A DNA stretch of 64,000 bases from positions 68,095,381 through 68,159,380 of the forward strand of contig CM068581.1 in NCBI GenBank assembly GCA_035048485.1, read 5' to 3'. Position numbers and translations under genes: made by a program. The notes under the pieces are model-generated. The model had not been told where the DNA came from. It made no database searches and saw nothing but the letters and a program-made list of their open reading frames with translations. The stretch comes from Pteria penguin. Its lineage: Eukaryota > Mollusca > Bivalvia > Pterioida > Pteriidae. Position 1 is the stretch's first letter, and every line of letters begins with the position of its first letter. Below, one piece after another: positions 7,896 through 47,582 of the stretch.

Positions 7896-8330
7896 TTAAG
7901 CATAGGGAATGGGATAAACATGTCAATGCAGATTCCTTGTCTAGAATTCCCTCTGAGGATCAATGTAGAACCAACCAGCACGGCAAGGGATCTTCCTTGT
8001 GGCGGTTGTAATTACTGTGAGAGGATACATGCTAACTGGGGACAATTCATCCATCATGTAGACGAGGCTGTTCCATTGGTAAGTGGAATAGTTCCTCATG
8101 CTACAGGAGAGGTAAGAGTGAATGAAATTCGTACAGAGGCTAAAAGTGACAAGGAGAAGTTATGGATGGATGGGTACTCTGTTGAGGCTATTCAAAAAGC
8201 ACAATCAGAGGATAGAGACTTGAAGTTCGTGATCAACTGGCTAAAATTTCAGGAAGTGCCATCTGAACCAGACCGTGTTAAGCTCACCTATGGCTAAAAA
8301 TTTATGGCTTAACAGAAAATTGTTATTTGG
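7896..8330 (+). pseudogene. Gypsy pol: RNase H tail and linker
   Basis: MTIKHREW and DSLSRIPSEDQ correspond to the end of Ty3/Gypsy RNase H (compare HRPGNKHRNVDALSR in copy 3). A Cys-containing linker follows (LPCGGCNYCERIHANW) that is conserved in all three copies, with PCGGCxYC as a possible zinc ligand set. The reading frame changes at about 8010. Confidence 0.75.
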
Positions 8331-9503
8331 ATAGTAAGGGGGTATTACGGAAACAGGTTGAAACTCAGTTGGGAGAGCCTGTTTCGGTTCTACCTTCCCA
8401 ATATAGAAAGAAGCTATCCAACTATGTCATGACATACCCACAGCAGGGCATCAAGGTCATGACTGTACCTTACATAGGTGTAAGGATAAATATTACTTGT
8501 ACAGGATGTCCGACGATGTCAGGAGATATGTAACAAGTTGCCCTACTTGTAGTCGTAACAAAAAAGCCAGTAGGAAGGCCAAAGGTAAGTTAATGTTGTA
8601 CCATGCTGGTTCTCCAATGGAAAGGGTACACATGAACTTTCTTGGGCCACTTACTGTTACAAGAAAAGGCAATTCATACATATCAGTGATGATAGATCAG
8701 TTCACAAAGTGGGTAGAGTGTGTGGCATTGCCTAATCAGACAGCTGAGGTGACAGCAACAACTGCAGTCAATGAGTTCTTCTCTAGATTTGGTATCCCGT
8801 TCCAGATTTGTACAGACCGGGGGACCAATTTCGAGAGTAATCTGTTTCAGCATTTGTGTCAACGGTTGCAAATACACAAAACACGTACAACTCCATTCCG
8901 GCCTAATGGAGAGGTACAATAGAACTTTAATGGATGCAGTTAGGTGCTTTTTAGTAAAACACACAGTTTATAAGATGAATATCTTCTTAACTAGCAGTGG
9001 CTCTGCGTTCCGCGGTTTATTGTAATACTGGATTTACTGCCAATATGCCCATGCTAGGTAGGGAAGTGAATGTCCCCGCTGACTTGGTGTTTCCAGGTAA
9101 GAATAGCGGAAGACAAAGTCCTGATGAATTTGTTGAAAGATTGGTTGAGAAAATTAAATTTGCACACAATGTGGCGAGGGATAAACTTAAAACAACACAG
9201 GAGCAGATGAAGCGAGATCATGATCTAAAAACTAGATCTACACAGTTCACAGTTTGCGGAGTTGTGTATGTTTTAGATACCCAGCCTATTGTGGGCAAAT
9301 GCAAAAAACCGGTGTCGAAGGGACCAGCGGTAATAACTAGGAAACTGAGTGACTTGATTTATGAAATCAAGATTAGACAGAAACTGGAAACTGTTAATCA
9401 TGACAGGTTCAAGGCTTGTCATGACAGAGAGGTGCCACAATGGATATCAAAACATAAAGAGGCAAACAACACAGGAGCAGATGAAGCGAGTGACCTAAAC
9501 TAG
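8331..9503 (+). pseudogene. Gypsy integrase, copy 1
   Basis: The frame shifts between 8327-8533, 8497-8922 and 8997-9503. Visible parts are the CxxC half of the HHCC finger (SCPTCSRNKK), the catalytic core with MNFLGPLTV (first Asp changed to Asn compared with MDFLGPLTV in copy 2), CTDRGTNFES (second Asp present), then a broken stretch around the Glu (RPNGEVQ then MERYNRTLMDAV). A C-terminal GPAVITRKLSDLIYEI segment resembles a GPY/F module. The changed Asp and the frame breaks make it inactive. Confidence 0.85.
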
Positions 9504-9760
9504 ATCTACACAGTATGAAGTTGGCGGAGTTGTGTATGTTTTAGATACCCAGCCTATTGTGGGGAAATGCAAAAAACTCAAGCCGGTGTTGATGGGACCA
9601 GCGGTAATAACTTGGAAACTGAGTGACTTGGTTTGTGAAATTAAGATTAGACTGAAACTGGAAAGAAAAAAGAGGAGTTGATCATGTTAATCATGACAGG
9701 TTATTGAAACTGGAAACTGTTAATCAGGACAATGGATATCAAAACACAAAGAGGCAGGGG
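9193..9760 (+). repeat. Internal 284-bp tandem duplication in copy 1
   Basis: The segment from CAACACAGGAGCAGATGAAG at 9193 is repeated from 9477. The second copy again carries GTGTATGTTTTAGATACCCA and the GGTAATAACT segment, but with small indels. It duplicates the integrase C-terminal coding region and is specific to this copy. Confidence 0.75.
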
Positions 9761-9777
9761 GTTCGAACCAGTTGAGG

Positions 9778-9950
9778 CCAAAACAGTTGACAAGTTGTGT
9801 TTATGTCAGGGTCCGGATAAGGGTGAGTTTATGAAACGAAAGGTTGTATCATGGACATTGTGTCAACATAACACCAGAAGAGGCGACTATAATTAATTTA
9901 TATTTATGTCCAAGCTGTGAGTCCGAATCTCATGTATCAATCTCTTTGTT
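9778..9950 (+). pseudogene. PHD-finger remnant at pol C-terminus, copy 1
   Basis: CLCQGPDKGEF matches the start of the PHD finger seen better in copies 2 and 3. The central CxxCxxWYHxxC part is lost by a small deletion. LCPSCE near 9904-9920 is the last CxxC pair. The frame is broken. Confidence 0.7.
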
Positions 9951-9962
9951 GCAGAATCATGA
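9945..9962 (+). promoter_or_regulatory. Putative 3' splice acceptor before accessory ORF
   Basis: TCTCTTTGTTGCAG precedes AATCATG at the start of the accessory ORF. Copy 2 has the same context with CAG changed to CAA, and copy 3 has CTATTTTAG before AATTATAATG. A pyrimidine-rich AG just before the start codon in the env position suggests a spliced subgenomic RNA. This is inference. Confidence 0.45.
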
Positions 9963-10611
9963 GCTCAAAAGCCCAAAAGCAGGTGAATTCATAGAAGGCT
10001 AAGTCAGTGAAGAGGACTTTCCCTAAGGTAAAGGAAAGGCGACAAAAAGGTGAAGCACCGCTTCCTTTTTTGAAAAGGATGAGTGAGGATGGTGTCCTTA
10101 TGGGTACACGTAGTCTTGAAGGCGCACTCTGGACGGACCCATGTCTGACTGTTTCTCAGATTCAGCAAGCCTGGATTCTCCAGTATAAAGCTGCATTGGG
10201 GAAGCAGAATAGGGTCTGGATTCGGCTGGCTCGGGAAGAGTGCGTTGAGCTCTTGGGGACAAAATGGGTTGATGCCGACCTGCTTCACTGGACGGCTCTC
10301 TAATGCCAAAGAAGAGGGGTGACTCCGGGCGCAAGCCGTGTGCATCCACTTCTGAGATGTCATGTACTCAGATGGCGAGGGATGTCAGGTTGGAGCGAGA
10401 CCCTACTTTGCCAGTGTTCCGAGAATATGTGGGGTCAGAGGTGTCACTCAGGCTACTTCTGACACCAACATTTCTGACTCTCATGAAATTGGGAGTAGTG
10501 TGACGCCTGATTGGAGACTCGCAGACTCTAATAATAATGAGTGAAAAGGTCATTTCGAGTCTGTCCTTAGCCTGGATCCAGAGGCTAGTAGGTTTGATGT
10601 AGAGGAATGAG
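9959..10611 (+). pseudogene. Accessory ORF, basic N-terminal module, copy 1
   Basis: Starts at ATG 9959 (MSSKAQKQ). A stop near 9998 and frameshifts follow, but the segments KRTFPKVKERRQ, LTVSQIQQAWILQ, QNRVWIRLAREECVELLG and VRLERDPTLPVFREYVG line up with copy 2 (21364-22044) and more distantly with copy 3 (RAWIRQVRQEGRVIFSDGWI, DIRLQTDPSIPVLRE). I know no family for this module. The charge pattern and a conserved helix with Trp-Ile-Arg suggest a small folded domain followed by a linker. Confidence 0.7.
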
Positions 10612-10631
10612 ATCTTTCATACTAGTTCAAA

Positions 10632-10920
10632 ATGAGGTGTAGGAGGAGGAGATGGAAATATGTTTATCGGTGGCACATTCCCCTTCTGTTTTCTCTGAAC
10701 TCCAAGGAAACCCTGGGTAACTTGTGTATTAAGCAAGATGAGGCTCTGAAGGCTTTGGTAAAGGCTGCGTTGGGTCCAGAGGCATCTTTGGATGATGCAG
10801 TGAAATATGTTAATAGCTGAGGGGACCTGCCAGAACTATCTGAAATGGCCCCTGAAACTAGTGAGGTTCTCTCCAATCGGTGGAGAGAATACGGTTGGGT
10901 CAGGCCAGCTTAGCTTTCGC
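10632..10920 (+). pseudogene. Accessory ORF, middle zinc-finger-like module, copy 1
   Basis: RWHIPLLFSLNSKETLGNLC and KALVKAALGPEASLDDAVKY align with copy 2 at 20602-20976, where a C-x4-C...H-x4-H finger precedes RRHIPPLF. In copy 1 the Cys pair is degraded (MRCRRRRWKYV) and a stop follows at about 10818. Confidence 0.65.
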
Positions 10921-11077
10921 TTAGGCCGGTCAATTCGCCAATAGCATTGTTTCACTTGAGGTGTCTTTTGTACTTAATTAGTCCGTTACCAAAGGGCATG
11001 CAGGGGAAATGGCAGCAAAGAGGTCTGGTGTCTTCGACCGATGACAGTCATATTGCGGGACCAGCCGTAAAGAGGCT

Positions 11078-11947
11078 GTGAAGAGGAGAGGTAGTTCTGA
11101 GGAAGAGGTGAAATCAAAAGTAGCCCGTTCGGAGACTATTCCTTCGTCGATCGCCAGGACGTCTCAAAGGTATAAGGAACCAATACGGTCTGTGGAGCAT
11201 CTTGTGTCATGGGGTGTTCGGGAACATCCCGCGGTAAAGGTCGACTTGGTGGGAGGGCTTTTGGTGTTCTGCGACCCAAAGACCTATCCTATCAAATTTA
11301 ACCAGGTCCTCAATTGGGAGTATGCCATTGGCGTGCATTCCAAGAGGGTGAAAGAATTTACAGAGGAGCGCTTCAAGGTGTTTCAGAGGCCCATTGATGG
11401 GCCTCGAGTAGTGGCTATAGGTGAGGTCGGGCTTGATAGAACCTCAGCCCCAGAAGAGTGGCCCTTGCAGGATGAAGTACTGTTCAAGGTGCTCGACCTG
11501 GTTCACGTTTTAGTACTTCATCTGAGGGGGATGTCATCAGGCATCTATAATTATGAGACAAGCTTACGTGGTTTGGGGATGCTTGTGACGGCTAGGTTGG
11601 ACAGACAGCAACTAATTCACCTGCACTGCTTCGCAGACAGTCGGGTGATGGTCCAACGCTGGCTGGAGGTGTTCCCAAATACACATTTTGGGTTTACAGC
11701 TTTGGTCAAGGAGTTTAACCATGAACAATCCTTGACCTTGCGGTCGGTTCCCTCCCAGAGGTTGTTGGTCGAGACAGATTCGCCTTATCTGTCTCCATCT
11801 GGTCAGGCCATCAACACTCCTGCATATGTGGGAGATGTAGCGAGCGTCCTAGCAGATAAGCTATACCTAAGTACCCGTGAGGTTCTGAACCTAACGGCGG
11901 AAATGGGCGCAAGCTATATAAGCTGTAGATTCAATAGGCTGGTGTGA
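11078..11947 (+). pseudogene. TatD-like metallohydrolase domain of accessory ORF, copy 1
   Basis: A 289-codon open frame holds most of a TatD-family TIM-barrel hydrolase: VAIGEVGLDR (metal-binding Glu), LVLHLRGM (His), LIHLHCFADS (His) and LLVETDSPYLSP (Asp). TatD enzymes are metal-dependent DNases acting on single-stranded or damaged DNA. The N-terminal HxH motif (FDSHFHL in copies 2 and 3) is missing because about 100 bases between SSIART and SQRYKE are deleted, so catalysis should be lost. A frameshift near the end replaces the normal C-terminus. The position, after the pol-PHD region and just before PPT and LTR, is the same in all three copies, which argues that it belongs to the element and is not a host TATDN gene. 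Confidence 0.85.
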
Positions 11948-12066
11948 GTTATAGTATAGTTAGAGGGTAGGTATGTAGACAGGTATGTATTAGCGGTTGT
12001 AAGTCTTAGTGGAGACTCGTAGTGGCTGAGTCCAAAGGGGAAGGAAGACGCTCAGAGTCCTCACAT

Positions 12067-12292
12067 AAAAGAGAGAGGAGTGTGGTAATATTGGGTTGGG
12101 CTCAGTATTAGTACTACATAAATCCTCTGGGGATTCTGGGTAATTCTTGAGTCAGCAGCCATCATCTTAACAGTGCATATTCTTGCCAGTGTTTCCACTG
12201 TCTACATTTGCTGATTCAGGACTTACTGAACACTTCTACTAGTCAGGTAAGAAGCCCCTGTAGTTAAGGTTGCTAATGTGACTATAATATAG
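12067..12292 (+). repeat. Polypurine tract and 3' LTR of Gypsy copy 1
   Basis: The purine run AAAAGAGAGAGGAG (12067-12080) is followed by TGTGGTAATATTGGG, the LTR start shared with copy 2 (AAAAGGGGGAGGAG then TGTGGTAATATTGGG) and, diverged, with copy 3 (TGTGGTAGAATTGG). The LTR is about 212 bp and ends near TGCTAATGTGACTATAATA. The end is set by where similarity to copy 2 stops, so it may be off by a few bases. Confidence 0.8.
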
Positions 12293-19204: not shown

Positions 19205-19401
19205 ATAGTAAAATTAGCAACTTTTACAGGGGCTGTTTACCTGACTACCAGAAGTGTTCTGAATCAGCAAATGGAAACACTGGCAAGATTATGTACTGTT
19301 AAGATGATGGCTGCTGACTCAGGAATTACCCAGAATCCCCAGGGGATTTATGTAGTTTTTATACTGAGACAACCCAATATTACCACACTCCTCCCCCTTT
19401 T
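19205..19401 (-). repeat. 3' LTR and polypurine tract of Gypsy copy 2
   Basis: On the minus strand AAAAGGGGGAGGAG (19388-19401) precedes TGTGGTAATATTGGG starting at 19387. A TATA-like AGTATAAAAAC lies 26 to 36 bases into the LTR. Similarity to the copy 1 LTR ends near TGCTAATTTTACTATA (about 19205). Length about 183 bp, shorter than copy 1 by small deletions. Confidence 0.8.
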
Positions 19402-19567
19402 ATGTGAGGACTCTGAGCATCTTCCTTCCTCTTTGGACTCATTCACTACGAGTCACCACTAAGACTTACAACCGCTATAAATACCTGTCTACCTACCCTC
19501 TAACCATACTATAACTCATTAAAAGGTATATATGTTCTATATTTATTATCAGACTAGCCTATTGAAT

Positions 19568-20542
19568 CTACAGCTTATATAGCTTGCGCCCATTTTCCGC
19601 CGTTAGGTTCAGAACCTCACGGGTACTTAGGTCTAGCTTGTCTGCTAGGACGCTCGCTACATCTTCCCACATATGCAGACCAGAGGGTTACAGATAAGGC
19701 GAATCTGTCTCGACCAACAACATCTGGGAGGGAACTGACGGCAAGGCCAAGGATTGTTCATGGTTAAACTCCTTGACCAAAGCTGTAAGCCCAAAATGTG
19801 TATTTGGGAACACCTCCAGCCAGCGTTGGACCATTACCCGACTGCCTGTAAAGCAGTGCAGGTAAATTGGTTGCTGTCAACCCAGCCATCACAAGCCTCC
19901 CCAAACCACGTAAGCTTGTCTCATAATTATATATGTCTGATGACATCCCCCTCAGATGAAGTACTAAAACCTGATCCACGCGAACCAGGTCGAGCACCTT
20001 ACACAGTACTTCATCCTGCAAGGGCCAATCTTCTGTGGCTAAGGTTCTATCAAGCCCGACCTCACCTATAGCCACTACTCGAGGCCCACCAATGAGCCTC
20101 TGAAACACCTTGAAGCGCTACTCTGTAAATTCTGTCACCCCCTTGGGATGCACGCCAGTGGCATACCCCCACATGAGGGCCTTGTCAAACTTGATAAGAT
20201 AGGTCTTTAGGTTGCAGAACACCATAACCACTCCCACCAAGTCCACCTTCACCGCAGGATGTGCCCGAACACCCCAGCGCCAAAAGATGCTCCACAGACC
20301 GTACAAGTTCCTTGTACCTATGAGACTTCCTGTTCAAATGGAAGTGGCTATCAAAGGCTTGATAGCGCCTTTCCACTGGCAGACCGCCCTGGCTTTGAAT
20401 GCCGGCACAAGACTTCTTTACCGAGGCCACTGTCTTTGGCGATCGACGAAGGAGTAGTTTCCGAACGGGCTCCTCTTGATTTCACCTCCTCCTTAGAATT
20501 ACTTCTCCTCTTTACGGCCTGGTCCTGCAACAGGACTAGCAT
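19568..20542 (-). pseudogene. TatD-like domain of accessory ORF, copy 2
   Basis: Fragments in several frames give YQAFDSHFHLNRKSHRY (HxH metal motif present), AVKVDLVGVVMVFC, VAIGEVGLDRTLATEDWPLQ (Glu), LVLHLRGM (His) and VETDSPYL followed by a stop. The frame of copy 1 near the end, restored here, would finish LTAENGRKLYKL at a TAG (19568-19570), which probably marks the natural C-terminus. Frameshifts near 20300, 20130 and 19860 and the premature stop kill the gene. It keeps the HxH motif that copy 1 lost. Confidence 0.85.
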
Positions 20543-20601
20543 CGGTCGAAGACACCCGACCTCTTTGCTGCCATTTCCTCTGCATGTCCTTTGGTAACGG
20601 C

Positions 20602-20976
20602 CTAATTAAGACACCTCCAGTGAAACAATGCTATGGGCGAATTGACCGGCCTAAGCGAAAGCTTAGATGGCCCGACCCAACCGTATTCCCTCCACCGATT
20701 GGAGAGAACCTCACTAGCTTCAGGGGCCATTTCAGATAGTTCTGGCAGGTCCCCTGAGTTATTAACGTATTTCACTGCATCATCCAAAGATGCTCCTGGA
20801 CCCAAAGCAGCCTTTACCAAAGCCTTCAGAGCCTTCTCTTGCTTACTACACAAGTTACCCAAGGTTTCCTTGGAGTTCAGAGAAAACAGAGGGGGAATGT
20901 GCCGCCGATAAACATGAAGGGACAGCTTCGTAGTGATTTCCCCACATCCCGAAACCTGACAACGGACACCCTTCAC
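20602..20976 (-). pseudogene. Accessory ORF, zinc-finger-like module, copy 2
   Basis: A 124-codon frame opens with VRCQVSGCGEITTKLSLHVY then RRHIPPLF, a C-x4-C-x9-H-x4-H arrangement typical of a C2H2-like finger. A helical stretch (KETLGNLCSKQEKALKALVK, AALGPGASLDDAVKYVNNSG) and WREYGWVGPSKLSLRPVNSP follow. Copy 3 has RCPFTDC and KRKHLPWIF at the matching place. It may bind nucleic acid or the partner domain of the same protein; this is inference. Confidence 0.7.
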
Positions 20977-21363
20977 ACTCCCTTCGGCACCTCTCCCTCC
21001 AAAATCATTGGATCCACAGAACCCTCATCGTAGGAAACCCTGACAGAAACATCTGCCTGGCTGCCCTTACCACCTGAGGTCACCACTGAGACGTCGCAAG
21101 CCCGTCTCAAGTGGTGATAATTCCTCAAAAGGCTTTTTCGCTCCTTCTTTTTCCCCGTATTGAGATAGGTGATCTGCTTGTTTCACAGGAGAACTCTGAT
21201 AGTTCACACCTGGGGAGCCGCTCACTACTGCTCGGCTATCAAGAGGGGAGCAGATCTCCACTTCTTGTTTCCCTACTTCAACAACACAGTAGAACCCAAC
21301 TTCCCATCAGGTTCTCCAGCAGTGTAGCATAAGTCCATCTCCTCCGACACCTCATTTTGAGAG

Positions 21364-22044
21364 CTAGTAGGAAAGACCTCGTGGAGAACCTTCCTCTACA
21401 TCAAACCTACTAGCCCCTGGATCCAGGCTGAGGACAGACTCGAACTGACCCTTTGACTCCTTATCATTAGAGTCTGCAAGACTCCAATCAGGCGTCACAC
21501 TACTCCCAATTTCCGGAGAGTCAGAAATGTTGTCAGAAGTAGCTTGAGTGACCCCTTCTGACCCCACATATTCTCGGAGCACTGGCAATGTAGGGTCTCG
21601 TTCCAACCTGACATCCCTCGCCATCTGAGTCCCTGACATCTCAGAAGTGGATGATCTCGGCTTGTGCCCGGAGTCACCCCTCTTTTTTGGCATCAGAGAG
21701 CCGTCCGGAGAAGGCAGGTAGGCATCAACCCATTTGGCCCCCAAGAGCTCAACGCACTCTTTCCGAGACAGACGAATCCAAACCCTATTCTGCTTCCCCA
21801 ATGCAGCTTTAGACTGCAGAATCCAGACTTGCTGAATCTGAGAAACAGTCAGATCTGGGTCCGTCCAAAGTGCGCCTCCAAGACAACGTGGAACCATAAG
21901 GACACTATCCTCACTCATCCTTGCCAAAAAAGGAAGCAGTGCTTCACCATCTTGCCGCCTTTCCTTTACCGTAGGGAAAGTCCTCTTCCCCGACTTAACC
22001 TTCTTTGAATTCACCTGCTATGGTGCTTTTGACCTCATGATTTT
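21364..22044 (-). pseudogene. Accessory ORF, basic N-terminal module, copy 2
   Basis: The longest surviving version: 216 codons from 22014 with KRTFPTVKERRQDGEALLPF, LTVSQIQQVWILQSKAALGK, QNRVWIRLSRKECVELLGAK and KKRGDSGHKPRSSTSEM, then VRLERDPTLPVLREYVGSEG and an acidic tail. The probable original start is the ATG at 22041 (MRSKAP), after which a TAG interrupts, so this copy is dead. Function unknown; conservation between copies 1, 2 and 3 is clear. Confidence 0.7.
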
Positions 22045-22215
22045 GCAACAAAGAGATTGTTAACGGAGATTAGAACTCACAGCTTGGACATAAATATGTC
22101 AATTAGAGTTGCCTTTTCTGGTGTTACATTTACACAATGTCCATGATACCACTCTTTACACTCTTCGCAGTGTATCATAAACTCACCCTTATCCGGACCC
22201 TGACATAAACAGAAC
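22045..22215 (-). pseudogene. PHD finger at pol C-terminus, copy 2
   Basis: FCLCQGPDKGEFMIHCEECK, then EWYHGHCVNVTPEKATLID and, after one frameshift, YLCPSCEF and a stop. The C4HC3 order (CxC, CxxC, H, C, CxxC) is complete. The Trp in EWYH and the aromatic before the first Cys are the residues that form the methyl-lysine cage in H3K4me-reading PHD fingers, so chromatin reading during integration is plausible. Confidence 0.8.
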
Positions 22216-22372
22216 TTGTCAACTGTTTTTGACCTCAACTGGTTCGAACCCCCTCTTTATGTTTTGATATCTATTGTGGCACCTCTCTGTCATGGCAAGG
22301 CTTCAACCTGTCATGATTAACAGTTTCTGTCTAATCTTGATTTCACAAACAAATCTCTCAGTTTCCGAGTTA

Positions 22373-23290
22373 CTACCGCTGGTCCCTCCACACCGGCCTG
22401 AGGTTTTTGCATTTGCCCACAATAGGCTGGGTATCTAAAACATACACAACTCCGCCAACTTCATACTGTGTAGATCTAGTTTTTAGATCATGATCTCGCT
22501 TCATTTGCTCCTGTGTTGTTTTAAGTATATCCCTCGCCACATGTTGTGCAAATTTAATTTTCTCAACCAATCTTTCAACAAATTCATCAGGACTTTGTCT
22601 ATTCTCACCTGGAAACACCAAGTCAGCAGGAACATTCACTTCCCTACCTCGCATGAGCATATTGGCAGTATATCCTGTATTACAATTAACCGCGGAACGA
22701 AGAGCCCCTGCTATTTGAGGAAGATACCCATCCCATAAACTATGTGTTTTACTAACAAAGCACCTAACTGCATCAACTATTGTAAATTTCCACCTGACCA
22801 TTAGCTGAAGGCCGGAATGGAGTTGTACGTGTCTTGTGTATTTGCAACCGTTGACACGAATGCTGAAATAGATTACTCTCGAAATTGGTCCCCCGGTCTG
22901 TACAAATCTGGAATGGGATACCAAATCTAGAGAAGATCTCATTGACTGCAGCTGCTGCTGTCACCTCAGCTGTCTGATTAGGCAATGCCACACACTCTAT
23001 CCACTTCGTGAACTGATCTACCATCACTAATATGTATGAATTGCCTTTCCTGGTAACAGTAAGTGGTCCAAGAAAGTCCATGTGTACCCTTTCCATTGGA
23101 GAACCAGCATGGTCCAGTATTAACTTACTTTTGGCCTTCCTACTGGATGTTTTGTTACGATTACAAGTTGGGCAACCTGTTACATATCGCCGGACATCCC
23201 ATACCAATAATATTTATGCTTACACCTATGAAAGTACGGTCTTGGCCTTGATGCCCTGTTATGGGTATGTCGTAACATAGTTGGATAGTT
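22373..23290 (-). pseudogene. Gypsy integrase, copy 2
   Basis: Two overlapping frames (22773-23207 and 22373-22942) cover the CxxC of the zinc finger (GCPTCNRNK), the core with MDFLGPLTV (Asp), CTDRGTNFES (Asp) and PSANGQVEIYNS (Glu), and the C-terminal segment LRSAVNCNTGYTANMLMRGR to VYVLDTQPIVGKCKN. All three DDE residues are present, but a frameshift splits the core from the C-terminus. The GPY/F-like part follows near 22330-22390. Confidence 0.85.
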
Positions 23291-23371
23291 TCTTTTCGAT
23301 ATTGGGAAGGTATAACCAAAACAGGCTCTCCCAACTGAGTTTCAACCTGTTTCGGTAATACCCCTTACTAT

Positions 23372-23865
23372 CTATATAACACAATTTCCTGTGAAACCAT
23401 AAATGATTTTAGCCATAGGTGAGCTTAAGAAAAGGTTTGGTTCAGATGGCACTTCCTGAGATTTCAACCAGTTGATCACGAACTTCCAAGTCCCTATCCT
23501 CTGATTGTGCTTTTTGAATAGCCTCACAAGAGTACCCATCCATCCATACCTATTCCTTGTCACTTTTAGCCTCTGTACGAATTTCATTTTCTCTGACCTC
23601 TCCTGTAGCATGAGGAACCTTTCCACTTACCAATGGAACAGCCTCCTCTACATGATGGATGAAATGTCCCCAGTTAGCATGTATCCTCTCACAGTACTTA
23701 CAACCGCCACAAGGAAGATCCCTTTGGATAATGCCGTGCTGATAGGTTCTACATTCATCCTCAGAGGGAATTCTAGACAGAGAATTAGACGAAGACATTG
23801 ACATGTTTATCCCCTGCCCTATGCTTAATAGTCATCCAATATTGGCTTAACCTCTCTAACCATCT
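23372..23865 (-). pseudogene. Gypsy RNase H tail and linker, copy 2
   Basis: SQYWMTIKHRAGDKHVN, SLSRIPSEDECRTYQHG and LPCGGCKYCERIHANWGHFI give the RNase H end and the conserved Cys-rich linker. The stretch to 23372 (KFVINWLKSQEVPSEPNLFL) corresponds to the spacer before the integrase finger. Frames are broken at about 23600. Confidence 0.75.
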
Positions 23866-23867
23866 GG

Positions 23868-24345
23868 CTAGCTGACCATTACTGTTCTCAAAATTAAGTA
23901 ACCTTTGTAAGCTACTAAATTCATAACTCTGGTAAAGGTGACTGGCGCATTACATAAGCCGAAACTCATTCTGGTAAACTGGAAGCCATACTTAGTGATG
24001 AAGGCCGTTTTACACTTGTCTTCATCCTTAATTTTGACTTGCCAATATCCACATGTAGCATCTAATTTTGAAAACCATATATTCCCCGATAGACCATCTA
24101 GACACTCCTCCACAATTGGCAAAGAGAATACTTCCTTTTTGGTTACCTTATTAAGGCCCCTATAATCCACACACCACCTCACGCTCCCATCCCTTTTGCG
24201 AGTGAGAACAGGAGGTGATACCCATTCTGCCATGGATGGTTCTATAACTCCCGAGTTTGACTTCTCCCCTACAGGAGATTATAGTGCCTTGAAGATTCTT
24301 TTTGCCAGTGGATATTCGCTGGAATGTATCCGGGTTTGCTTGCAT
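23868..24345 (-). pseudogene. Gypsy reverse transcriptase, N-terminal half, copy 2
   Basis: SPPVLTRKRDGSVRWCVDYR, GLNKVTKKEVFSLPIVEECL, WFSKLDATCGYWQVKI and FGLCNAPVTFTRVMNLV are Ty3/Gypsy RT motifs 1 to 4. The sequence then jumps from MNLV to RNase H-end sequence (LNFENSNGQLARWLE in another frame), so the YxDD motif is deleted. The part above 24233 is frameshifted. It ends against LINE sequence at 24345. Confidence 0.85.
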
Positions 24346-39733: not shown

Positions 39734-39979
39734 TATTTTAAATTAGCAATATGTTTGCTAATTACAAGTATACATAAAGGTAATAAACATGACAAACATG
39801 AAATAGCAAGAAATACCTTGATGATACGAGTAGATAAGCTGTCTGGAAATCGAATGCGCAGCCCCGTCGGTCCTTTGCTGTGTATATCTGGCATGTGGTG
39901 CACCACGTGATATTTACAGGTCAAGTCATTGAATACAAATGTCGAACCCGACCAATTCTACCACACTCCTTCCCATTCC
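39734..39979 (-). repeat. 3' LTR and polypurine tract of Gypsy copy 3
   Basis: On the minus strand GGAATGGGAAGGAG precedes TGTGGTAGAATTGG at 39965. The LTR is about 232 bp and ends near TTGCTAATTTAAAATA, comparable to TTGCTAATTTTACTATA in copy 2. It contains the near-palindrome CACGTGGTGCACCACATG (39892-39909), a double E-box-like site also found in the 5' LTR piece at 47513-47530. Confidence 0.75.
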
Positions 39980-40216
39980 ATGATAAAAGACCAGTGCATC
40001 ATAAACTGAAATATTCCGACTATTTTGAAAAAATAATCAGACTAAAAAGTTTTACATGTATCTAATACAAAAATATCAGTACATTTAAATAGAGTGTCTA
40101 GAATACCTATTTATTACAAAATACTGACATGACAATTCTGTAACAGGCTGACTGAACTGCCCATCAAAGGATATATGTAACAGGCTGTCTATACTGCCTA
40201 TTACAGGTGAAATTCT
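39980..40216. other. Gypsy copy 3 downstream of accessory ORF
   Basis: Untranslated DNA between the TatD stop and the polypurine tract. Two copies of an AACAGGCTGNCTRWACTGCC motif (40142-40165, 40182-40205) form a short direct repeat. Confidence 0.5.
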
Positions 40217-41386
40217 TTATGCTGCCCCGTACAATCTCTGAGCGTTGGTTGTGGTCAACTGCAGGAGATCCTTCACTGACATCTTAAGGTGAGGAGCAAC
40301 CACGCTAGCCACATCTCCCAAATATGCTGGGATGTTAACGGATACAGAGTGTGCAGTTGGCATGTAAGGGGAATTTGTTTCCAATAGCAAGCGTTCAGGG
40401 GGAATGGAGTTAAGGCCCTGAATCTGTTCCTCATTGAACCTCACTGCAGTGGCAGTAATCCCAAAATAGGCACGGGGAAAACGCTCCAACCAGTCCTGTA
40501 CCAACTGCCGGTCTCCAGTGAAACAATGGATGTGTATAAGTTGATGATAGGCACAGTGCTTGTCTAGCAACTGCATTCCTCTGGCATGCACATCCATGCC
40601 TATGACGTCAGATTTGGTACCTCTCAGGTGTAGAACCAATGGTCGATTAGGTTTAGTCAGTGACAACACCTGACAGAATACCTCCTCCTGACGTCTCCAG
40701 AGCCCTGCTGATACAGTCCTATCCAATCCCACTTCACCAAGGGCAACAATCTGGGGGAAATCCAATAATTTCTTTAGGTGCTGGAAACGTTGAGCCGTCA
40801 ATTCCTGATGGTGTTTTGGGTGTACGCCTACAGCGACCTGCCAAGGACTTGAAACGGTTAGATCCCTTGGATGGTTGGCTGGTTCGCTGTACACTATGAT
40901 CCCTCCCACCAAGTTCACGACAATGTTGGGGAGACATTGGCCCGATGACGAAAATCTCAACACATCCTCCACTTTCTGGTCCTTAAATCTTCCCCAGAGT
41001 TTGATGCTGGTCCTGTCCAGGTGAAAATGACTATCAAATGCCTGATACCGTGCAGACTCCTTATTGTTATTATGATCGCTACGGGTTTCCATATCTTCAC
41101 CTGAATCGGAACCTTGGCACTCGTCCACTAAAATCAATTCCTCCTCAGATGTCCCTTCCCGATCATCTCCCACAAAGGCTAAACTGCCAGTCACACAGAA
41201 ACGCTTCTGTGCACTAACAGTCAACCCATGCAGCAAGATGACCAGACTCCTCCAATTGATAAGGACAGTAAGTGAGTCCATGGGATGCAACTGGAAATCC
41301 TCGTTTGGTACCTTCCACTGGCAATGACGACACAAACTAAGCATCCCTTGTCGAGCATTTTCAGTGATGATGGAGGTCCTGGGCAT
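40217..41386 (-). pseudogene. TatD-like metallohydrolase domain of accessory ORF, copy 3
   Basis: A 389-codon open frame, the best preserved of the three. After a CxxC-containing head (SLCRHCQWKV) and an acidic linker, the TatD barrel begins near residue 115: FDSHFHLDR (His 120 and 122), VAVGVHPKHH, VALGEVGLDR (Glu 218), LVLHLRGT (His 253), IHIHCFTGD (His 287), LLLETNSPY (336-341), and it ends LTTTNAQRLYGAA. All canonical metal ligands are present except the catalytic Asp, which is Asn 338 here (ETD in copies 1 and 2). TatD proteins are metal-dependent nucleases. One in-frame TAA at 41393-41395 separates it from the upstream half (41396-41760), so the full ORF is interrupted even though the domain itself is open. 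Confidence 0.85.
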
Positions 41387-41392
41387 CTGGCC

Positions 41393-41760
41393 TTATCTGT
41401 TGATGAACTCTACTGCTATCTGTAAAGCGTCATGTTTCCCAAATCTGTACTCAGCTAAAGCTGTAATGGCTTCAAAACGCCGTTGGTCTAAGCTGTACTC
41501 ATTAGAATTTTCCATAAAGATCCATGGCAGATGCTTGCGCTTCAACTTTTTATCCACAGTGTTACAATCTGTAAATGGACACCTGGAAATCCTCTCCGAA
41601 TCCACTGAAGTAGAAGGAATAGAAATCTGCAGATTCATATCCAGCCGAGGTCTCTTGCTGGAAGTATCAGCTCCATCCTTTACAGCCACTGTCCTGTATG
41701 GTTTTTGTGTAATTTTTGGAGGTAAACACCATGGTTTTCACCCTGGTAGGCATAGTAACT
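41393..41760 (-). pseudogene. Accessory ORF, zinc-finger-like module, copy 3
   Basis: The frame is open from about 41760 and ends in the TAA at 41393 that divides it from the TatD part. It contains RCPFTDC and KRKHLPWIF, matching the C2H2-like module of copy 2, then DQRRFEAITALAEYRFGKHD and ALQIAVEFI (compare KALGPEASLDDAVKYV of copies 1 and 2). Confidence 0.7.
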
Positions 41761-42462
41761 AGTCCAGAAGTTGCTGAATCCTGCTCTGACTGACCTGACT
41801 GTATATTTTCCTCAACATTCATAGCAGAAGCTGGAATGTCTTCAGGAACGGAGGCTGTTACTGAAACATTAATATCTACTGCCAGACTTGTTCCAACAAT
41901 AGATGAGATGATCCAGTCTTGCTCATTGAAACTTACAACGAACAGGAGGTGAATTTACAACATTTTCCTTTATAACGGGAACGGAATCTGTTGAATCAGC
42001 AGCATTTTCTCTCAAGACAGGAATGGATGGGTCTGTTTGTAATCTAATATCCTGACATGTACCTGAAATAGACACAGATGCTGAGACACTAGGATACGTC
42101 GATTTTCTTTTCTTAGGCTGCAAGGTGGCTCCTGTTTGAGACGGCATATGTTCATCGATCCATCCGTCCGAGAAAATGACTCTACCCTCCTGTCTAACTT
42201 GTCGTATCCAGGCACGATCTCCCAACCGTTTTGCCAGATCGTACTGCATTTTCATTGCCCGACACAACTCTTCATGTGGCTCCGAACTCAATACCCCCAA
42301 GTCCCATATCAAAGTTCGAGGTTGGGTCAAAATACCTGCTGTGGTGCGTCGTTTCAAATATCCTTCTCCCTCCTGACGTTGAAATGTGGGAACTGGCCTA
42401 ATATTTCTCCTCTCCCTCTTCCATTGACGTCTTGAATCCTTTTTTTTTTTTTCATTATAATT
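41761..42462 (-). pseudogene. Accessory ORF, basic N-terminal module, copy 3
   Basis: A 144-codon frame (41923-42357) with RTTAGILTQPRTLIWDLGVL, HEELCRAMKMQYDLAKRL, RAWIRQVRQEGRVIFSDGWI, PKKRKSTYPSVSASVSI and DIRLQTDPSIPVLRENAADS. The ATG at about 42460 lies just after CTATTTTAG, a possible acceptor, but the A-run there puts it out of frame. The stretch 41761-41922 continues in broken frames (Ser/Thr/Val-rich linker). Confidence 0.65.
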
Positions 42463-42492
42463 CTAAAATAGTAATACTTAATAATGTAATAA

Positions 42493-42655
42493 TTAATGAC
42501 ATTCTGGACACAGATACACATCAATTTTCTGTGCATTTGCTTCACTAATATTAACACAAGTTCCATGATACCATTCCCTACATTCCTCGCATTGCATCAT
42601 AAATGACCCTGTATCCGGACCTCGACAAATACAGTATTCATTTTGGTGTACCCTA
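42493..42655 (-). pseudogene. PHD finger at pol C-terminus, copy 3
   Basis: Intact C4HC3 finger: YCICRGPDTGSFMMQCEECR, EWYHGTCVNISEANAQKIDV and YLCPECH, then a stop. The spacing (CxC, CxxC, H, C, CxxC) and the Trp before the Tyr-His pair agree with histone-reading PHD fingers. The finger follows integrase sequence where other Gypsy groups carry a chromodomain. A frame change joins it to the integrase C-terminus at about 42660. Confidence 0.85.
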
Positions 42656-43710
42656 GCTAGTGGGGTCAGATGACTTGTGTCTCTGTATCCACATGGGAAG
42701 CTGGCGATCTGGACATCGCTTAAGCCTATCATGATTTATGCTTACAAGCTTTCTTCGTAATGTAATCTCATAAACACAATCACTCAGCTTTCTGGTGATA
42801 ACTCCTGGCCCTTTCCACAGAGACTTCATTTTGCGACATTTACCTTTAGTCGATGAAACGTCTAATACATAAAAAAAAACATCACCAACCTCATAAGCAT
42901 TCTGGCAACATTTTATATCATAGTCACGCTTCATGACAGCTTGTGTTGTTTTCAAAGTTCCCCTGAGCTAACTGAATATGTGACACTAAGGTAGCCACAT
43001 ATTCATCAATACCTTTATCAGATTGATTTTCATGTCCAGGAAATACCAGATCTATTGGCTTGTTAACTTCCCTTCCCAATATCAGCATATTAGCCGTGAA
43101 CCCTGTGCTACGATTCACAACTGATCTCAAAGCTCCAGCTAATTGAGGTAAATACTCATTCCACTGGGTTTGAGACCTGCTCACATCGCACAGCATCCAT
43201 AAGAGTTCTATTAAAACGTTCTACTTGGCCATTAGCTGATGGTCTGAAAGGTGTTGTTCTTGTTTTATGTATATGAAACTGCTCACAAATTTGTTGAAAG
43301 AGCTTACTTTCAAAATTAGTTCCTCTGTCCGAAAATATTTGGAAAGGGTAACCAAATCGACAGAAAAACTCGTTTATGGCAGCTCTCACAGTTTTTTCAG
43401 CAGTTTGGAAAGGTAAAGGGATACATTCCACCCATTTGGTGAATTGATCCACCATCATCAAAACGTAAGAGTTGCCCTTCTTTGTCACTGGCAAAGGTCC
43501 CATGAAGTCAAGATGTACCCGTTCCATTGGTGCCCCTGCATGGTACTGGGTCATTTTGCACTTAGAACGTCGAACAGGCTTTTTATTTCTATTGCAAACT
43601 GCACAGGTTGCAACAAAATTCCTGACATTACTAGACACTGCATACCAGTGAAACCTCTCTTTAATCCGGGCTAATGTTCTGTCAACTCCCTGATGTCCTG
43701 CAGCTGGAAT
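42653..43710 (-). pseudogene. Gypsy integrase, copy 3
   Basis: The zinc finger is complete (HNIPAAGHQGVDRTLARI with two His, then CAVCNRNKK). The core has LDFMGPLPV (Asp), FSDRGTNFES (Asp) and SANGQVERFNRTL (Glu), so DDE is intact. The C-terminal segment reads QLAGALRSVVNRSTGFTANM, LGREVNKPIDLVFPGHENQS, and then KGPGVITRKLSDCVYEITLR (GPY/F-like) and INHDRLKRCPDRQLPMWIQR. Frames change near 43170 and 42950. Confidence 0.85.
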
Positions 43711-43821
43711 ATTATGACAGAGTTCAAGACTTCAGGTCGCATTGAGGAGGGGACAACTAATAAGCGTTCTGTTGATGTTTTTGTATTCTGAACCTGATAC
43801 AATACTCCATGGTCATCCAGT

Positions 43822-44200
43822 TCATAGAGCTTTGTTTATCCAGTAATGCTTTGCCTCTGGACTACTTAGAAATAAATCACTTTCAGAAGGTATGTCTTGG
43901 GATTCTAACCAGCTGACAATCAATTTCAAGTTTTTGTCTAATTTTTGATTTCTACTGGTATCCTCCCAAGAATAACTGTCTAACCGTAATTTATGTGATA
44001 TCACTCTGGCACTGGATACATTTACCTGATCATCTATGTTCATGACAGTTTGTGTATTAGTAAGCCCTTGCTTGTTGACCAACGGTACTGCATAGTCTAC
44101 ATAGTTTGTGTATTAGTAAGCCCTTGCTTGTTGACCAACGGTAATGCATAGTCTACATTTTCCAGGAACTCATTCCAAGTTCGATGCATTTTCTGGCAAT
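43822..44200 (-). pseudogene. Linker between RNase H and integrase with 56-bp duplication, copy 3
   Basis: LPCGGCKYCQKMHRTWNEFL is followed by a 56-base tandem duplication (44047-44102 and 44103-44158) that shifts the frame. Then LDKNLKLIVSWLESQDIPSE and SDLFLSSPEAKHYWINKAL correspond to KFVINWLKSQEVPSEPNLFL of copy 2. Confidence 0.75.
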
Positions 44201-44740
44201 ACTTGCAACCACCACAGGGTAACTCGATTGGTTTTACCTTAGCATTTGAGTGTGGGCAGTATGTATCGACCTGAAAACGGGATAATGCATCTACATTCCG
44301 GTGTTTATTTCCTGGACGATGCTGGATAGTCATAAAATATTGACTTAGCTCCTCCAACCATCTTGCCAGCTGACCATTCAATGTTTTAAAATTCATTAAC
44401 CATTGTAGACTACTATGATCAGTTCGAACAATGAACGTTCTGCCTAGCAAATAGTGTCCAAAATGCCTAGTAGCTCTTATAACTGATAACAACTCCTTTC
44501 TGGTAGTGCAGTAACGTCGTTGCTGAGAATCTAATGAGAAACTACAGTACCCTATACATCTTTCTACTCCATTTTGGATCTGCAACAATTCAGCCCCGAT
44601 AGCAAACTCTGATGCATCAGTATCTAATATGAATGTATCTTTGATATTTGGATTTATGAGAACTGGTGCACTCATAAGAGCTTGCTTCAAGTTTTCGAAA
44701 GCTACTTGATGCTCTTGACCCCAATGAAACTGCTAGTTTG
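44160..44740 (-). pseudogene. Gypsy RNase H, copy 3
   Basis: LKQALMSAPVLINPN, FILDTDASEFAIGAELLQIQ (catalytic Asp), CTTRKELLSVIRATRHFGHY (Glu), FIVRTDHSSLQWLMNFKT (Asp) and QHRPGNKHRNVDALSRF are all present. This is the typical Ty3/Gypsy RNase H after RT. Confidence 0.85.
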
Positions 44741-45964
44741 CCAGTGATAGCTTATAATGGTACTGCAAGTTTTGCAAAACCCTTGATAAAATTTCTGTGG
44801 TAATTTGCAAAACCATACAACCTCTCAACTTCCTTAGTGTTTGTGGGAACTGGCCAATTTTGCATGGTTTCATTTGACATTGGCAGTTTCCACTCCTTCC
44901 TGGCTGACTACTCTGCCAAGAAATTCAACGCGCTTCTTAAATAGGTCACATTTTCGAGCTTTCAGTTTTAGACCATCGGACCTAAAACGTTGTAACACCT
45001 GGGTGAGATTATCTATGTGTTCAGTGATTGTTTTACCAAGGACTAGCAAATTATCCAGAAAGGCAAGTACAATATTCCAATGTAACCCTCTGAGCACCAA
45101 GTTCATAACTCTTATGTATGTGGAGGGCGCGTTACATACACCAAATCCCATCCGAGCATGCTGGAACAAGCCAAACTTTGTAAGAAAAGCTGTTTTACAT
45201 TTGTCAGACTCTTCAACTTCGACCTGCCAGTATGCTGAATTAGCATCTATTTTAGTAAACCACATATTGCCAGTAAGACTATCAATGCACTCCTCGATCA
45301 AGGGTAAAGGAAATACATCCTTTTTTGTGACCTTGTTAAGGGCTCGATAGTCTACACACCACCTAAGTGAACCATCCCGTTTGCGAATGAGAACTGGTGG
45401 CGATGTCCTTTCTGACATAGAAGGTTCAATAACGCCTGCCTCCAGCATCTTATTTGAATGTTTTCCTTCTTCCTCAACAAAACACATAGGGATTCTCCGG
45501 AGACGTTGTTTGATTGGAGGTGATGTACCTGTATCTATTTTATGTTTGATTGCTGTAAAATTACCTAGATCAAAATCTGACTTGGCAAACACATCCTCAT
45601 AATCTATTAGCAATCTTTTTAATCTATCCTTCTCTTCTGAATCCAGGAATTCGATGGACTTTTCATATAGATCAATCAAATGCTCTGGCAATTCAGACAG
45701 TGTTTTGTTTGAGGTTCGAACTTTGTTAACATTCAAATAATCATTACTTTGACTATAAACCTGATCAATCTCTGATGCTGACCCCACAATTTGACCTTTG
45801 TTTAAAATAATATTTCTATCATTGCAATTAACAAAGTTGATAACAGGCTGGGATTTATCAGAATGTAATGATTCAGGAATTAACAAGTGATCATGATATT
45901 CAGGTTCAAATATATAATCCGATAATTGTCTACTAATTTTACAAGGCAACTGTAGGACTGACAA
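44741..45964 (-). pseudogene. Gypsy reverse transcriptase, copy 3
   Basis: A 364-codon frame from 45964 to 44870: a linker (SVLQLPCKISRQLSDYIFEP), then LKRLLIDYEDVFAKSDFDLG, HKIDTGTSPPIKQRLRRIP, SPPVLIRKRDGSLRWCVDYR, ALNKVTKKDVFPLPLIEECI, WFTKIDANSAYWQVEVEE, FGVCNAPSTYIRVMNLVLRG and FLDNLLVLGKTITEH. The catalytic YLDD is FLDN here, so the second Asp is lost. CDLFKKRVEFLGRVVSQEGV follows. A stop falls near 44870, and the connection to RNase H continues in other frames. Confidence 0.9.
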
Positions 45965-47335
45965 TGCCGATGTTATATAGTAGTTTCCCCCATAGTAGTC
46001 CCCCCCCCGGAAAAATGGCTATATAGTAGTTTTCCCCCATGGCGGAAAAACTACTATATAGTAGTCTTTCCCCCATAGTAGTTTTTCCCCATTACGTAAC
46101 GGTTTGGAATTTATACACGTTCGTTCTGTATCAGTCAGATAACATTTGAAATACAAATGTACTATAGTAACAGCCTGTGGATCAAACCGATGGTGTTATG
46201 GTTAACGGGTTTCTATATACTGTTAAGTGTTTTGTGTGTGTATTTATTTTTTGTCTTATTTATTTATTTACAAGTCTTTCTTTATATATATCATTATAAA
46301 AATTGTCGTTTACTTGCGTATAGATGTCAATCGTGACGTCAGGCTATGATTCAAGATCGATCCCAGGCAACTTTTCATAATACATCATAAGTATAATAGG
46401 AATTTATCAATTAAAATGTTCCAATGATAAATAAAAGTTTCAAAGCTCTACACCCTTTTGTGTAGAAGATATAGTCAAGGTTAAAGTTTTTGAAAAGTAG
46501 GTCACACTTCAAGGTCAAGGACTTTAGGTCAAAAGTCATGGTCCCAAATTAAAGATCTTATCACAAGTAATCTATATATGATGTTCAAAACCCCTTCTCC
46601 TTTTTGTACAAAAGATACAGCCAAAGTTAAGTTTTTGAAAACGTAAAGCACCAAGGTCAAAGTCACTAGTTAAAAAATCATGGTCCTAAATAAAATGTCT
46701 CATCACAAGAAAACTATATGTGGAGTTTCAAACTCTTGTACCTCTAGGTAAAAACGATATAGTCAAGGTTTTGCCACAGGGTAAGAGTCACAGACAGGTC
46801 AAAAACTAGATGCCCCCGAATTTCATTTCGGGGCATAAAAACGAACTTGCTTTTCTTTTTTCCATTGTATATATAGAGATTTCTCGAATTAAATAACGAT
46901 ATCTCGAATGAAATTCTAGAAGTTTAATCTCTGTTCTAAATATATGCATTTGTATTGGAAAAGAGATTAAAATTGAAGAAATTTCTACTTCAGAAAATGA
47001 GATATCTCCACATTAATTGGATATATCTCCGCATCAAAAGTTGAAATATCTCTATTTTAAATAGAAATCTATCTATTGTTAACAAGGTAACAAGCTGGAT
47101 TTATTTATGTGTGAAAAGAAAATCTGGAATTTCACATTGGGGGGAAATCCACTATATAGTAGTTTTTCCCCGGGGGGAAAATGGCTACAAGAAGGGGGAA
47201 AATGGCTATATAGCCAAATTTCCCCCGGGGAAAAAACTACTATATAGCCATATTTCCGGGGAGAAAAACTACTATATAGCCATTTTTCCGGGGGGAAATA
47301 TGGCTAGGGGGAAAAACTACTATATAACATCGAAA
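45965..47335. mobile_element. Insertion in Gypsy pol with CTATATAGTAGT subterminal repeats
   Basis: Interrupts pol between the protease (ends 47339) and RT (starts 45964). The outer ends form a perfect 16-bp inverted repeat CGATGTTATATAGTAG (45968-45983 and 47317-47332). Inside each end are several copies of CTATATAGTAGTTTTTCCCC or its reverse, alternating with ATGGCTATATAG. The middle holds TGACCT/AGGTCA-rich repeats (46440-46830) and purine-rich repeats (46870-47060). No transposase. A non-autonomous DNA element of unknown superfamily is likely. Confidence 0.7.
46440..46835 (+). repeat. AGGTCA-rich dispersed repeat, tandem
   Basis: Three diverged units of about 120 to 150 bases with GATATAGTCAAGGTTAAAG, CAAGGTCAAGGACTTTAGG, TCATGGTCCTAAAT and ATCACAAGAAA. 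Related blocks are at 52620-52890, 59160-59600, 60060-60230 and 61280-61560. Confidence 0.6.
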
Positions 47336-47338
47336 CTA

Positions 47339-47490
47339 CCGTCCTTTTATTCACAGTAACCCTAGCAACCTTTGGCCCTCCTACAGGAGCTTTGCCTGAT
47401 GAAAAAGGAAGCTCTTGTTTACCAATAGACAATGTATCTTTGTCCATGTTGATTGTAACTTGATGCTTTTTCAGAAAATCTAAACAAAGT
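47339..47490 (-). pseudogene. Gypsy protease C-terminal piece, copy 3
   Basis: Minus-strand TVKDRLCLDFLKKHQVTINM then DKDTLSIGKQELPFSSGKAP and VARVTVNKRTVVS. LCLDFLKKHQVTI matches the G-x-DFL end of retroviral-type aspartic proteases. The DTG active site lies upstream and is deleted. Confidence 0.65.
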
Positions 47491-47573
47491 CGGTCCTTAA
47501 CTGTATATATGTCATGTGGTGCACCACGTGATATTACAGGTCACAAATGTCGAACCCGACCAATTCTACCACA
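47489..47573 (-). repeat. 5' LTR fragment of Gypsy copy 3
   Basis: TGTGGTAGAATTGGTCGGGT at 47573 down to AAGGACCGAC at 47489 matches the beginning of the 3' LTR (39965 to about 39870). The similarity stops where protease coding begins, so rest of LTR, primer binding site, gag and half of protease are deleted. The double E-box-like palindrome is retained (47513-47530). Confidence 0.7.
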
Positions 47574-47582
47574 CGGGAGAAT

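Follow-up and report, generated by a model that had tools for sequence, protein, structure and literature searches.

A clade of Ty3/Gypsy retrotransposons in the bivalve Pteria penguin almost certainly carries a TatD-type nuclease as a gene of its own, in a third open reading frame (ORF3) behind gag and pol. Retrotransposons with long terminal repeats (LTRs) are thought to need gag and pol only, with env as the usual addition. We consider here three decayed copies of such elements in one stretch of 64,000 nucleotides (the window; positions 68095381-68159380 of contig C2, in a genome of 838 Mb and 49 contigs), together with their relatives elsewhere in the genome and in protein databases. An initial annotation, made from the window alone, had proposed a Ty3/Gypsy family with TatD as an accessory ORF, and better-kept elements elsewhere in the genome bear this out.

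Complete elements enclose the TatD gene

A profile search finds 95 TatD matches genome-wide, some of which are parts of one locus. Ten of the best TatD loci were checked for LTRs and target-site duplications (TSDs). Seven of the ten have two full 253-bp LTRs enclosing gag, pol and a third ORF that ends in TatD, which are the full elements with paired LTRs, integrase-PHD and TatD that the initial annotation had suggested looking for. A 4-bp TSD flanks all seven, with a different set of four bases from locus to locus, and the 5' and 3' LTRs are identical in five. These seven loci are spread over three contigs (five on C5). At the remaining loci the 5' LTR is cut (L013/L014), absent from the piece taken (L009/L010), or the 253-bp LTR finds no match (L027/L028). 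The LTRs start with TG and end with TA instead of the usual CA. Because LTR pairs with separate TSDs enclose TatD, it travels as part of the element, as it has done several times.

The best-described element (L019/L020) encodes a gag of 658 amino acids (helix-hairpin-helix, Retrotrans_gag, weak CCHC), a pol of 1340 amino acids (protease, reverse transcriptase, RNase H, integrase and a terminal PHD finger, an order obtained by searching pieces of one pol separately) and an ORF3 of 894 amino acids with TatD at its end. In Pfam searches gag matches Retrotrans_gag (E 3.7e-7) and, in one of the two gags searched, zf-CCHC at a weak E of 0.0037, below the Pfam cut-off. The gag starts with a helix-hairpin-helix (HHH_3, E 2.9e-7; L020:1657-3630). 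Assignment to Ty3/Gypsy follows from the paired LTRs with 4-bp TSDs, the order protease-reverse transcriptase-RNase H-integrase and the (weak) zinc knuckle of gag. Pfam reports no env family in ORF3, where a zinc-finger module and TatD stand instead of the env of errantivirus-like elements, and no chromodomain after the integrase, where a PHD finger stands and not the mark of a chromovirus. At L020, ORF3 lies in the pol frame behind two stop codons. The first ATG of ORF3 comes 24 bases past the start of the first stop, so it probably needs a start of its own.

The distribution of TatD across the genome offers a different account, in which TatD is a host gene lying beside integrations or spread by segmental duplication. 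In particular, 49 of the 95 matches lie on one 70-Mb contig, C5 (many at about 34-60 Mb), and the genome holds a TatD outside the ORF3 clade (L001). TatD sits within LTR pairs with separate TSDs at seven loci on three contigs, however, and it tracks an integrase clade, as described below, while the ORF3 TatD clade excludes L001. The TSD-flanked copies exclude a segmental duplication as its source, and we regard the host-gene account as improbable in the extreme. The initial annotation had named what would overturn it, namely intact members lacking TatD together with a single shared host duplication behind the TatD loci. Neither was found: this genome yielded no intact member of the family that lacks TatD, and the TSDs rule out the duplication.

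TatD marks one integrase clade

A search from a single integrase gave 132 matches; the best 131 of 1719 candidates were scored, so the counts that follow are lower bounds. TatD was counted when it lay downstream on the same strand, at most 6 kb from the integrase place; 94 and 38 places were tabulated. It is present at 26 of the 94 and at none of the remaining 38. Its presence falls with integrase identity: 11/12 places at 85% or more, 11/16 at 54-84%, 2/5 at 44-53%, 1/19 at 40-43% and 1/42 below 40%. At 54% identity or more, TatD thus follows at 22 of 28 places, or in 21 of 25 elements after merging three split places (a joining that we infer, with parts 10 kb apart in one case) and counting L081, in which a decayed TatD had escaped the profile search. 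The other four elements (L078, L079, L080 and C5:57903913) have integrases that are partial or contain stops, and the first three show no TatD within 3.6 kb downstream. Many TatD places have no upstream integrase among the best-scored candidates, which is not evidence of absence.

An integrase tree of 24 rows gives the same picture. All ten TatD-bearing rows fall in a clade of 12 (support 100/100). Two TatD-less rows, L052 and L064, each with a stop, are nested in it, and the other 12 TatD-less rows lie outside. TatD marks one integrase clade. Within the tree, window copies 1 and 2, window copy 3 and the better-kept family A form separate branches.

The copies in the window

The initial annotation had given all three window copies the same domain order, and that order (integrase, PHD finger, basic/helical region, zinc-finger module, TatD) is seen in each, but all three are decayed, interrupted by stops, frameshifts or deletions. 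The features of copy 3, with the evidence for each, are as follows.

39735..47574, minus strand: copy 3, a decayed Ty3/Gypsy element with an ORF3 containing TatD (Pfam domains; boundaries from the tail of L066 and LTR remnants)
39735..40216, minus strand: 3' tail, including an LTR remnant at 39866-39966 (93% to the L066 tail)
40217..41392, minus strand: ORF3, part of the helical module and the TatD domain, with the Asp ligand changed to Asn (PF01026, E 5.2e-39; motif check)
41393..41737, minus strand: ORF3, zinc-finger module, in the TatD frame with one stop between (reading frame; family A ORF3 match at 41093-41581, E 6.8e-20)
41923..42462, minus strand: ORF3, conserved N-terminal domain and linker (E 6.4e-21 to family A ORF3)
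42493..42735, minus strand: PHD finger, C-terminal end of pol (PF00628, E 2.8e-12)
42653..43962, minus strand: integrase (H2C2, rve, C-terminal domain), frames broken (Pfam and comparison with family A)
44097..44732, minus strand: RNase H (PF17917, E 6.5e-32)
44870..46018, minus strand: reverse transcriptase (PF00078, RVT_1, E 7.2e-29)
46233..47261, minus strand: foreign repeat within the element (79-86% to sequence flanking L001, which lies on another contig)
47400..47483, minus strand: protease-region fragment (tblastn, E 1.2e-4)
47489..47574, minus strand: 5' LTR remnant (81-82% to 39866-39966)

The ends of copy 3 are real, since its relative L066 on another contig keeps 93% identity as far as base 39735 and the two LTR remnants (39866-39966 and 47489-47574) bracket the element. 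The LTRs of copy 3 are weak (81-82% between the remnants), and no LTR pair is established for copy 1 or copy 2. In copy 3 the family A gag finds no match, and the protease region a short match only. The TatD domain of copy 3 is a full-length PF01026 match (134.6 bits against a cut-off of 27), with its last metal ligand altered (LETN instead of LETD); the TatD domains of two better-kept copies match the profile as well.

Copies 1 and 2 are 90-96% alike in blocks. For copy 1, integrase and TatD come from Pfam; for copy 2, reverse transcriptase and integrase come from Pfam and TatD from a profile. The remainder of each was placed by tblastn, repeats and reading.

7006..12197, plus strand: copy 1, decayed element
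about 7024-7221, plus strand: copy 1, gag N-terminus
7889-8078, plus strand: copy 1, RNase H pieces
8278-8922, plus strand: copy 1, integrase
8991-9503, plus strand: copy 1, integrase C-terminal part
about 9708-9918, plus strand: copy 1, PHD finger
about 9995-10303, plus strand: copy 1, ORF3 N-terminal part
about 10626-11042, plus strand: copy 1, zinc-finger/helical module
11045-11947, plus strand: copy 1, TatD (frame without the HxH part)
19272..24278, minus strand: copy 2, decayed element
23868-24278, minus strand: copy 2, reverse transcriptase
22773-23494, minus strand: copy 2, integrase
about 22092-22214, minus strand: copy 2, PHD finger
21364-22017, minus strand: copy 2, ORF3 N-terminal part
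20545-21024, minus strand: copy 2, zinc-finger/helical module
19574-20358, minus strand: copy 2, TatD

Region 7006-7179 of copy 1 matches the helix-hairpin-helix-bearing start of gag. Copy 1 also has an internal direct duplication (9229-9390 and 9497-9664, 91-93% identical), and a short tandem repeat of 37-bp units (repeat family D7) occupies 16015-16162 of the window.

ORF3 and its relatives in molluscs

The basic, zinc-finger-like and TatD modules had been described as separate. The modules are present, but in the better-kept relatives they form a single ORF, with open frames of 795-894 amino acids at several places. The layout begins with a conserved N-terminal domain and a variable basic and Ser-rich linker; a zinc finger resembling the C2H2 type (CPxxxC...KRHxxxxHLP) follows, then a helical module and, at the end, the domain with the TatD fold. 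A structure model of one relative (P0003) is confident for the helical module and the TatD barrel, and TatD nucleases head the fold matches in the PDB.

Two protein database searches gave 57 and 49 matches, many of them unnamed. Where a close relative of the window's TatD ORF has a name, it comes from a mollusc, in most cases a bivalve; Saccostrea, Pinctada, Crassostrea/Magallana, Ostrea, Pecten, Argopecten, Ruditapes, Tegillarca, Haliotis and Nucella are among those represented. Twenty of the 57 (P0038-P0057) are weak matches, mostly plain bacterial-like TatD; two of these, P0042 (E 2e-4) and P0044 (E 2.8e-12), fit the module profile. The second search used residues 540-894, which start past the finger and overlap the end of the helical module, and a profile made from other proteins detects the zinc-finger/helical module in 41 of the 44 proteins new in it. 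An N-terminal domain of one of three families is found in 26 of the 84 pooled proteins. One predicted protein of Magallana gigas (P0015) has a Gypsy protease-reverse transcriptase linker fused to TatD, and the linker is 37% identical over 130 amino acids to the window pol.

The metal ligands proposed for the domain (HxH, Glu, His, His and Asp) are well kept among relatives and damaged in window copies 1 and 3. Among 73 TatD rows of at least 200 amino acids, 71 span all six ligand columns, and 65 of these keep all six; copy 3 has Asn for Asp, and the copy 1 frame has lost HxH. A TatD tree was built from 60 rows, omitting P0036, which is too short, P0001, P0033-P0035 and the second-search proteins. 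In it, 38 of 39 ORF3-like rows group together in a single clade (98/89), and L001, the sole further TatD of this genome in the tree, falls outside. P0067, to which we return below, also lies outside the ORF3 clade, on a long branch with P0044.

Three ORF3-like TatD proteins (P0025, P0027 and P0032) are filed in bins of Candidatus Thiodiazotropha, a clam symbiont; they are probably contamination from elements of the host clam. P0110 (1085 amino acids) combines a B-box, TatD and a Schlafen AlbA_2 domain without the zinc-finger/helical module. With a single query, the prokaryote and viral contig collections returned no relative; an alignment query returned eight loci in bacterial/archaeal records and none in viral contigs. 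The viral structure library gave a single match below E 0.001, a Yasminevirus protein.

The TatD part is under purifying selection

Among family A elements (L009, L013, L015, L023 and L019), five of six comparisons of the TatD part give a ratio of nonsynonymous to synonymous rates (dN/dS) of 0.07-0.18, at a synonymous divergence (dS) of 0.056-0.085 and Fisher p of 3e-6 to 4.3e-5. The sixth, L023 against L019 (0.38, p 0.19), is too close to tell, and for L015 against L019 another alignment gives 0.069 instead of 0.166. In the window, copy 3 against L066 gives 0.25 (p 1.3e-9), and two parts of copy 1 against L067 give 0.27 (p 6.6e-6) and 0.57 (p 0.17). These pairs share branches and hence are not independent. 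Comparisons between subfamilies are unusable, with synonymous sites mostly saturated. The TatD part is under purifying selection, and ORF3 does not look less constrained than the integrase, since two integrase pairs give 0.32 and 0.37.

A functionless ORF3 that merely hitch-hikes with the element would find some comfort in the uninformative most recent pairs (such as L023 against L019) and in the weaker part of copy 1, as well as in the rotifer ORF3s discussed below, which are reported to show no significant departure from neutrality within a genome (PMC5408684). The low ratios in five pairs and in copy 3 against L066, and the conservation over several mollusc groups, make a passenger very unlikely. 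Taken with the single integrase clade and the conserved mollusc proteins, this selection agrees with the earlier suggestion that TatD has been kept through divergence.

One module, two enzymes

A sister lineage, with integrase 41-42% identical and no TatD, also has a third ORF. In one copy, L068, this ORF (L068:836-2167) has a finger and helical module of the same kind and ends in a GDSL hydrolase (PF00657, 26.1 bits against a cut-off of 23.6; checked in this one copy), and a Saccostrea protein, P0062, is a relative of this GDSL-type ORF3. The module lies 1.1-3.0 kb past the integrase at all seven places assigned to this lineage by score, three of which are in the integrase tree. A profile-profile comparison of the TatD and GDSL ORF3 families aligns them along the module only (E 3.5e-5, probability 72%).

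The kinship of the L068 module is settled by a bridge, P0067, in which a module of the sister lineage (35% over 189 amino acids, E 1e-29) is followed by a TatD domain. This is an unnamed database protein with 16 member sequences, known without a genomic place. Searched against the genome it gives 64 matches, 16 of them to the module; seven are the sister-lineage places and nine are short pieces. A single module profile run against nine ORF3s of TatD-less loci finds L068 (E 6e-6) and L075 (E 0.0026), the other seven not being significant; we claim no link for L075. One type of module is found with either a TatD or a GDSL enzyme, and the elements seem to exchange helper enzymes on a shared module.

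Ten TatD-less loci were read 3' of the integrase (L068, L069 and L070-L077, with L069 and L070 forming one family). Zinc-finger motifs were seen by eye in seven of the eight from L070 to L077 (none in L071), and L073 alone passes the Pfam cut-off. Two of these Gypsy loci have a BTB_2 domain after pol, beside zinc-finger motifs (L074, 1629-1940, E 9.2e-15; L076, 1094-2467, E 7.4e-16), and in L074 the BTB_2 domain and the finger are in different frames. No homology to the TatD ORF3 is claimed for the ORFs of these other loci.

A proposed role for ORF3

We propose that the finger and basic region would hold the ORF3 protein on the element's nucleic acid, and that the TatD domain, a 3'-5' exonuclease fold, would trim or clear that nucleic acid. 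Its targets would be cDNA 3' ends, or remnants of primer or RNA:DNA hybrid, around reverse transcription and integration. Because the sister lineage has a GDSL hydrolase in the place of TatD, the enzyme would be one exchangeable part of ORF3. The TatD fold differs from that of DEDDy exonucleases. The trimming role is guided by the DEDDy exonuclease found in the ORF3 slot of rotifer elements (PMC5408684) and by the implication of TATDN2 in R-loop resolution (PMC12709183). The trimming mechanism has in our judgement an even chance of being right, and the explanation as a whole, a Gypsy clade whose ORF3 TatD acts on element nucleic acid, is about as evenly balanced.

Several observations weigh against it. 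The nested, decayed L052 and L064 have no TatD match, so the TatD label needs three changes on the integrase tree, and 0% of bootstrap trees need a single one. Substitution by GDSL argues that cutting of nucleic acid is dispensable to the role of ORF3. At L020, two stops stand in the shared frame between pol and ORF3. A ligand is lost in 6 of the 71 proteins, including P0017 of Pecten maximus and P0021 of Crassostrea angulata; the TatD proteins of other species are known from protein records without genomic context; and dN/dS between near-identical copies ranges from 0 to 0.86 and is uninformative.

The GDSL replacement is compatible with two views: that both enzymes cleave esters in the same job, or that a common holder carries different effectors. 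Along the second line, ORF3 might mainly be a targeting or RNA-binding adaptor, with TatD, GDSL and BTB as alternative effectors against the host, for example its nucleic-acid defences, or against competing elements. The module is common while the enzyme differs, BTB domains follow pol at two other loci, and the N-terminal part of ORF3 is a conserved domain in its own right. The TatD ligands and sequence are well conserved, however, as if the chemistry matters, and the effectors are not known to have a host target. We consider the adaptor possible, though on the unlikely side. Along the first line, ORF3 would be an exchangeable enzyme holder whose TatD and GDSL enzymes share one job, ester cleavage at the tRNA primer that enables reverse transcription to start, which may mean removal of an amino acid or trimming of the 3' end. 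Some TatD proteins are D-aminoacyl-tRNA deacylases, of which the one trace here is the name of P0030. We give this tRNA-primer job little credence. Trimming of the element's own nucleic acid remains our preferred proposal.

Comparison with known systems

Among cellular proteins, bacterial YcfH/TatD has the same fold (YcfH, 1yix, is the best PDB sequence match, E 1.8e-18), and human TATDN1 and TATDN3 are among the fold matches of the ORF3 TatD. These differ from it in being non-mobile chains of about 250-300 residues without the module. TATDN2, an animal TatD protein, is implicated in R-loop resolution (PMC12709183); compared by description, it shares with ORF3 the TatD domain and a possible RNA:DNA hybrid substrate, and differs in being a cellular gene. 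Gene models called 'TatD' or 'TATDN2' in annotated mollusc genomes, like the TatD proteins in bins of clam symbionts, may be ORFs of such elements and not genes of the host or of bacteria.

Among retroelements, chromoviruses are Gypsy elements with a chromodomain after the integrase (PMC12440569); a chromatin-reader-like domain ends pol in both, and here it is a PHD finger. As to PHD fingers in Gypsy integrases, a mosquito paper (PMC3286476) names a host gene and not an element domain. Gypsy elements are common in molluscs according to a survey of bivalve transposons (PMC10294476), whose text does not contain the words ORF3, accessory, nuclease or PHD. In the open-access PMC literature, among the matches listed and with subscription papers and Repbase outside its scope, no TatD retroelement was found, and TatD and TATDN2 have zero occurrences in the 10-20 papers listed of hundreds or thousands; the one PMC paper combining TatD, retrotransposon and gypsy is on wheat.

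The closest systems are the Juno and Vesta LTR retrotransposons of bdelloid rotifers (Rodriguez, Kenefick & Arkhipova 2017, PMC5408684). They are reported to have gag-pol and, where env would stand, an ORF3 for an enzyme, either a GDSL esterase or a DEDDy 3'-5' exonuclease, and the same ORF3 types are shared between different retroelements. Neither 'TatD' nor 'mollusc' appears in that text. The initial annotation's idea of an undescribed Gypsy lineage thus holds for TatD, for which no retroelement was found in the PMC papers covered, but not for captured ORF3 enzymes as such, which PMC5408684 already reports for rotifer LTR elements. What is new is TatD as the ORF3 enzyme and GDSL on the same kind of module. 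Like the rotifer elements, those of Pteria hold the enzyme within the element (TatD, and GDSL in a single sister-lineage copy); they differ in placing it behind a shared zinc-finger/helical module and in a pol that ends in a PHD finger. A class of nuclease for which no retroelement role was found in print has been retained as a third gene in several groups of molluscs, and the module behind which it sits bears GDSL as well. Together with the rotifer cases, this suggests that filling the ORF3 slot with a helper hydrolase is a solution that recurs.

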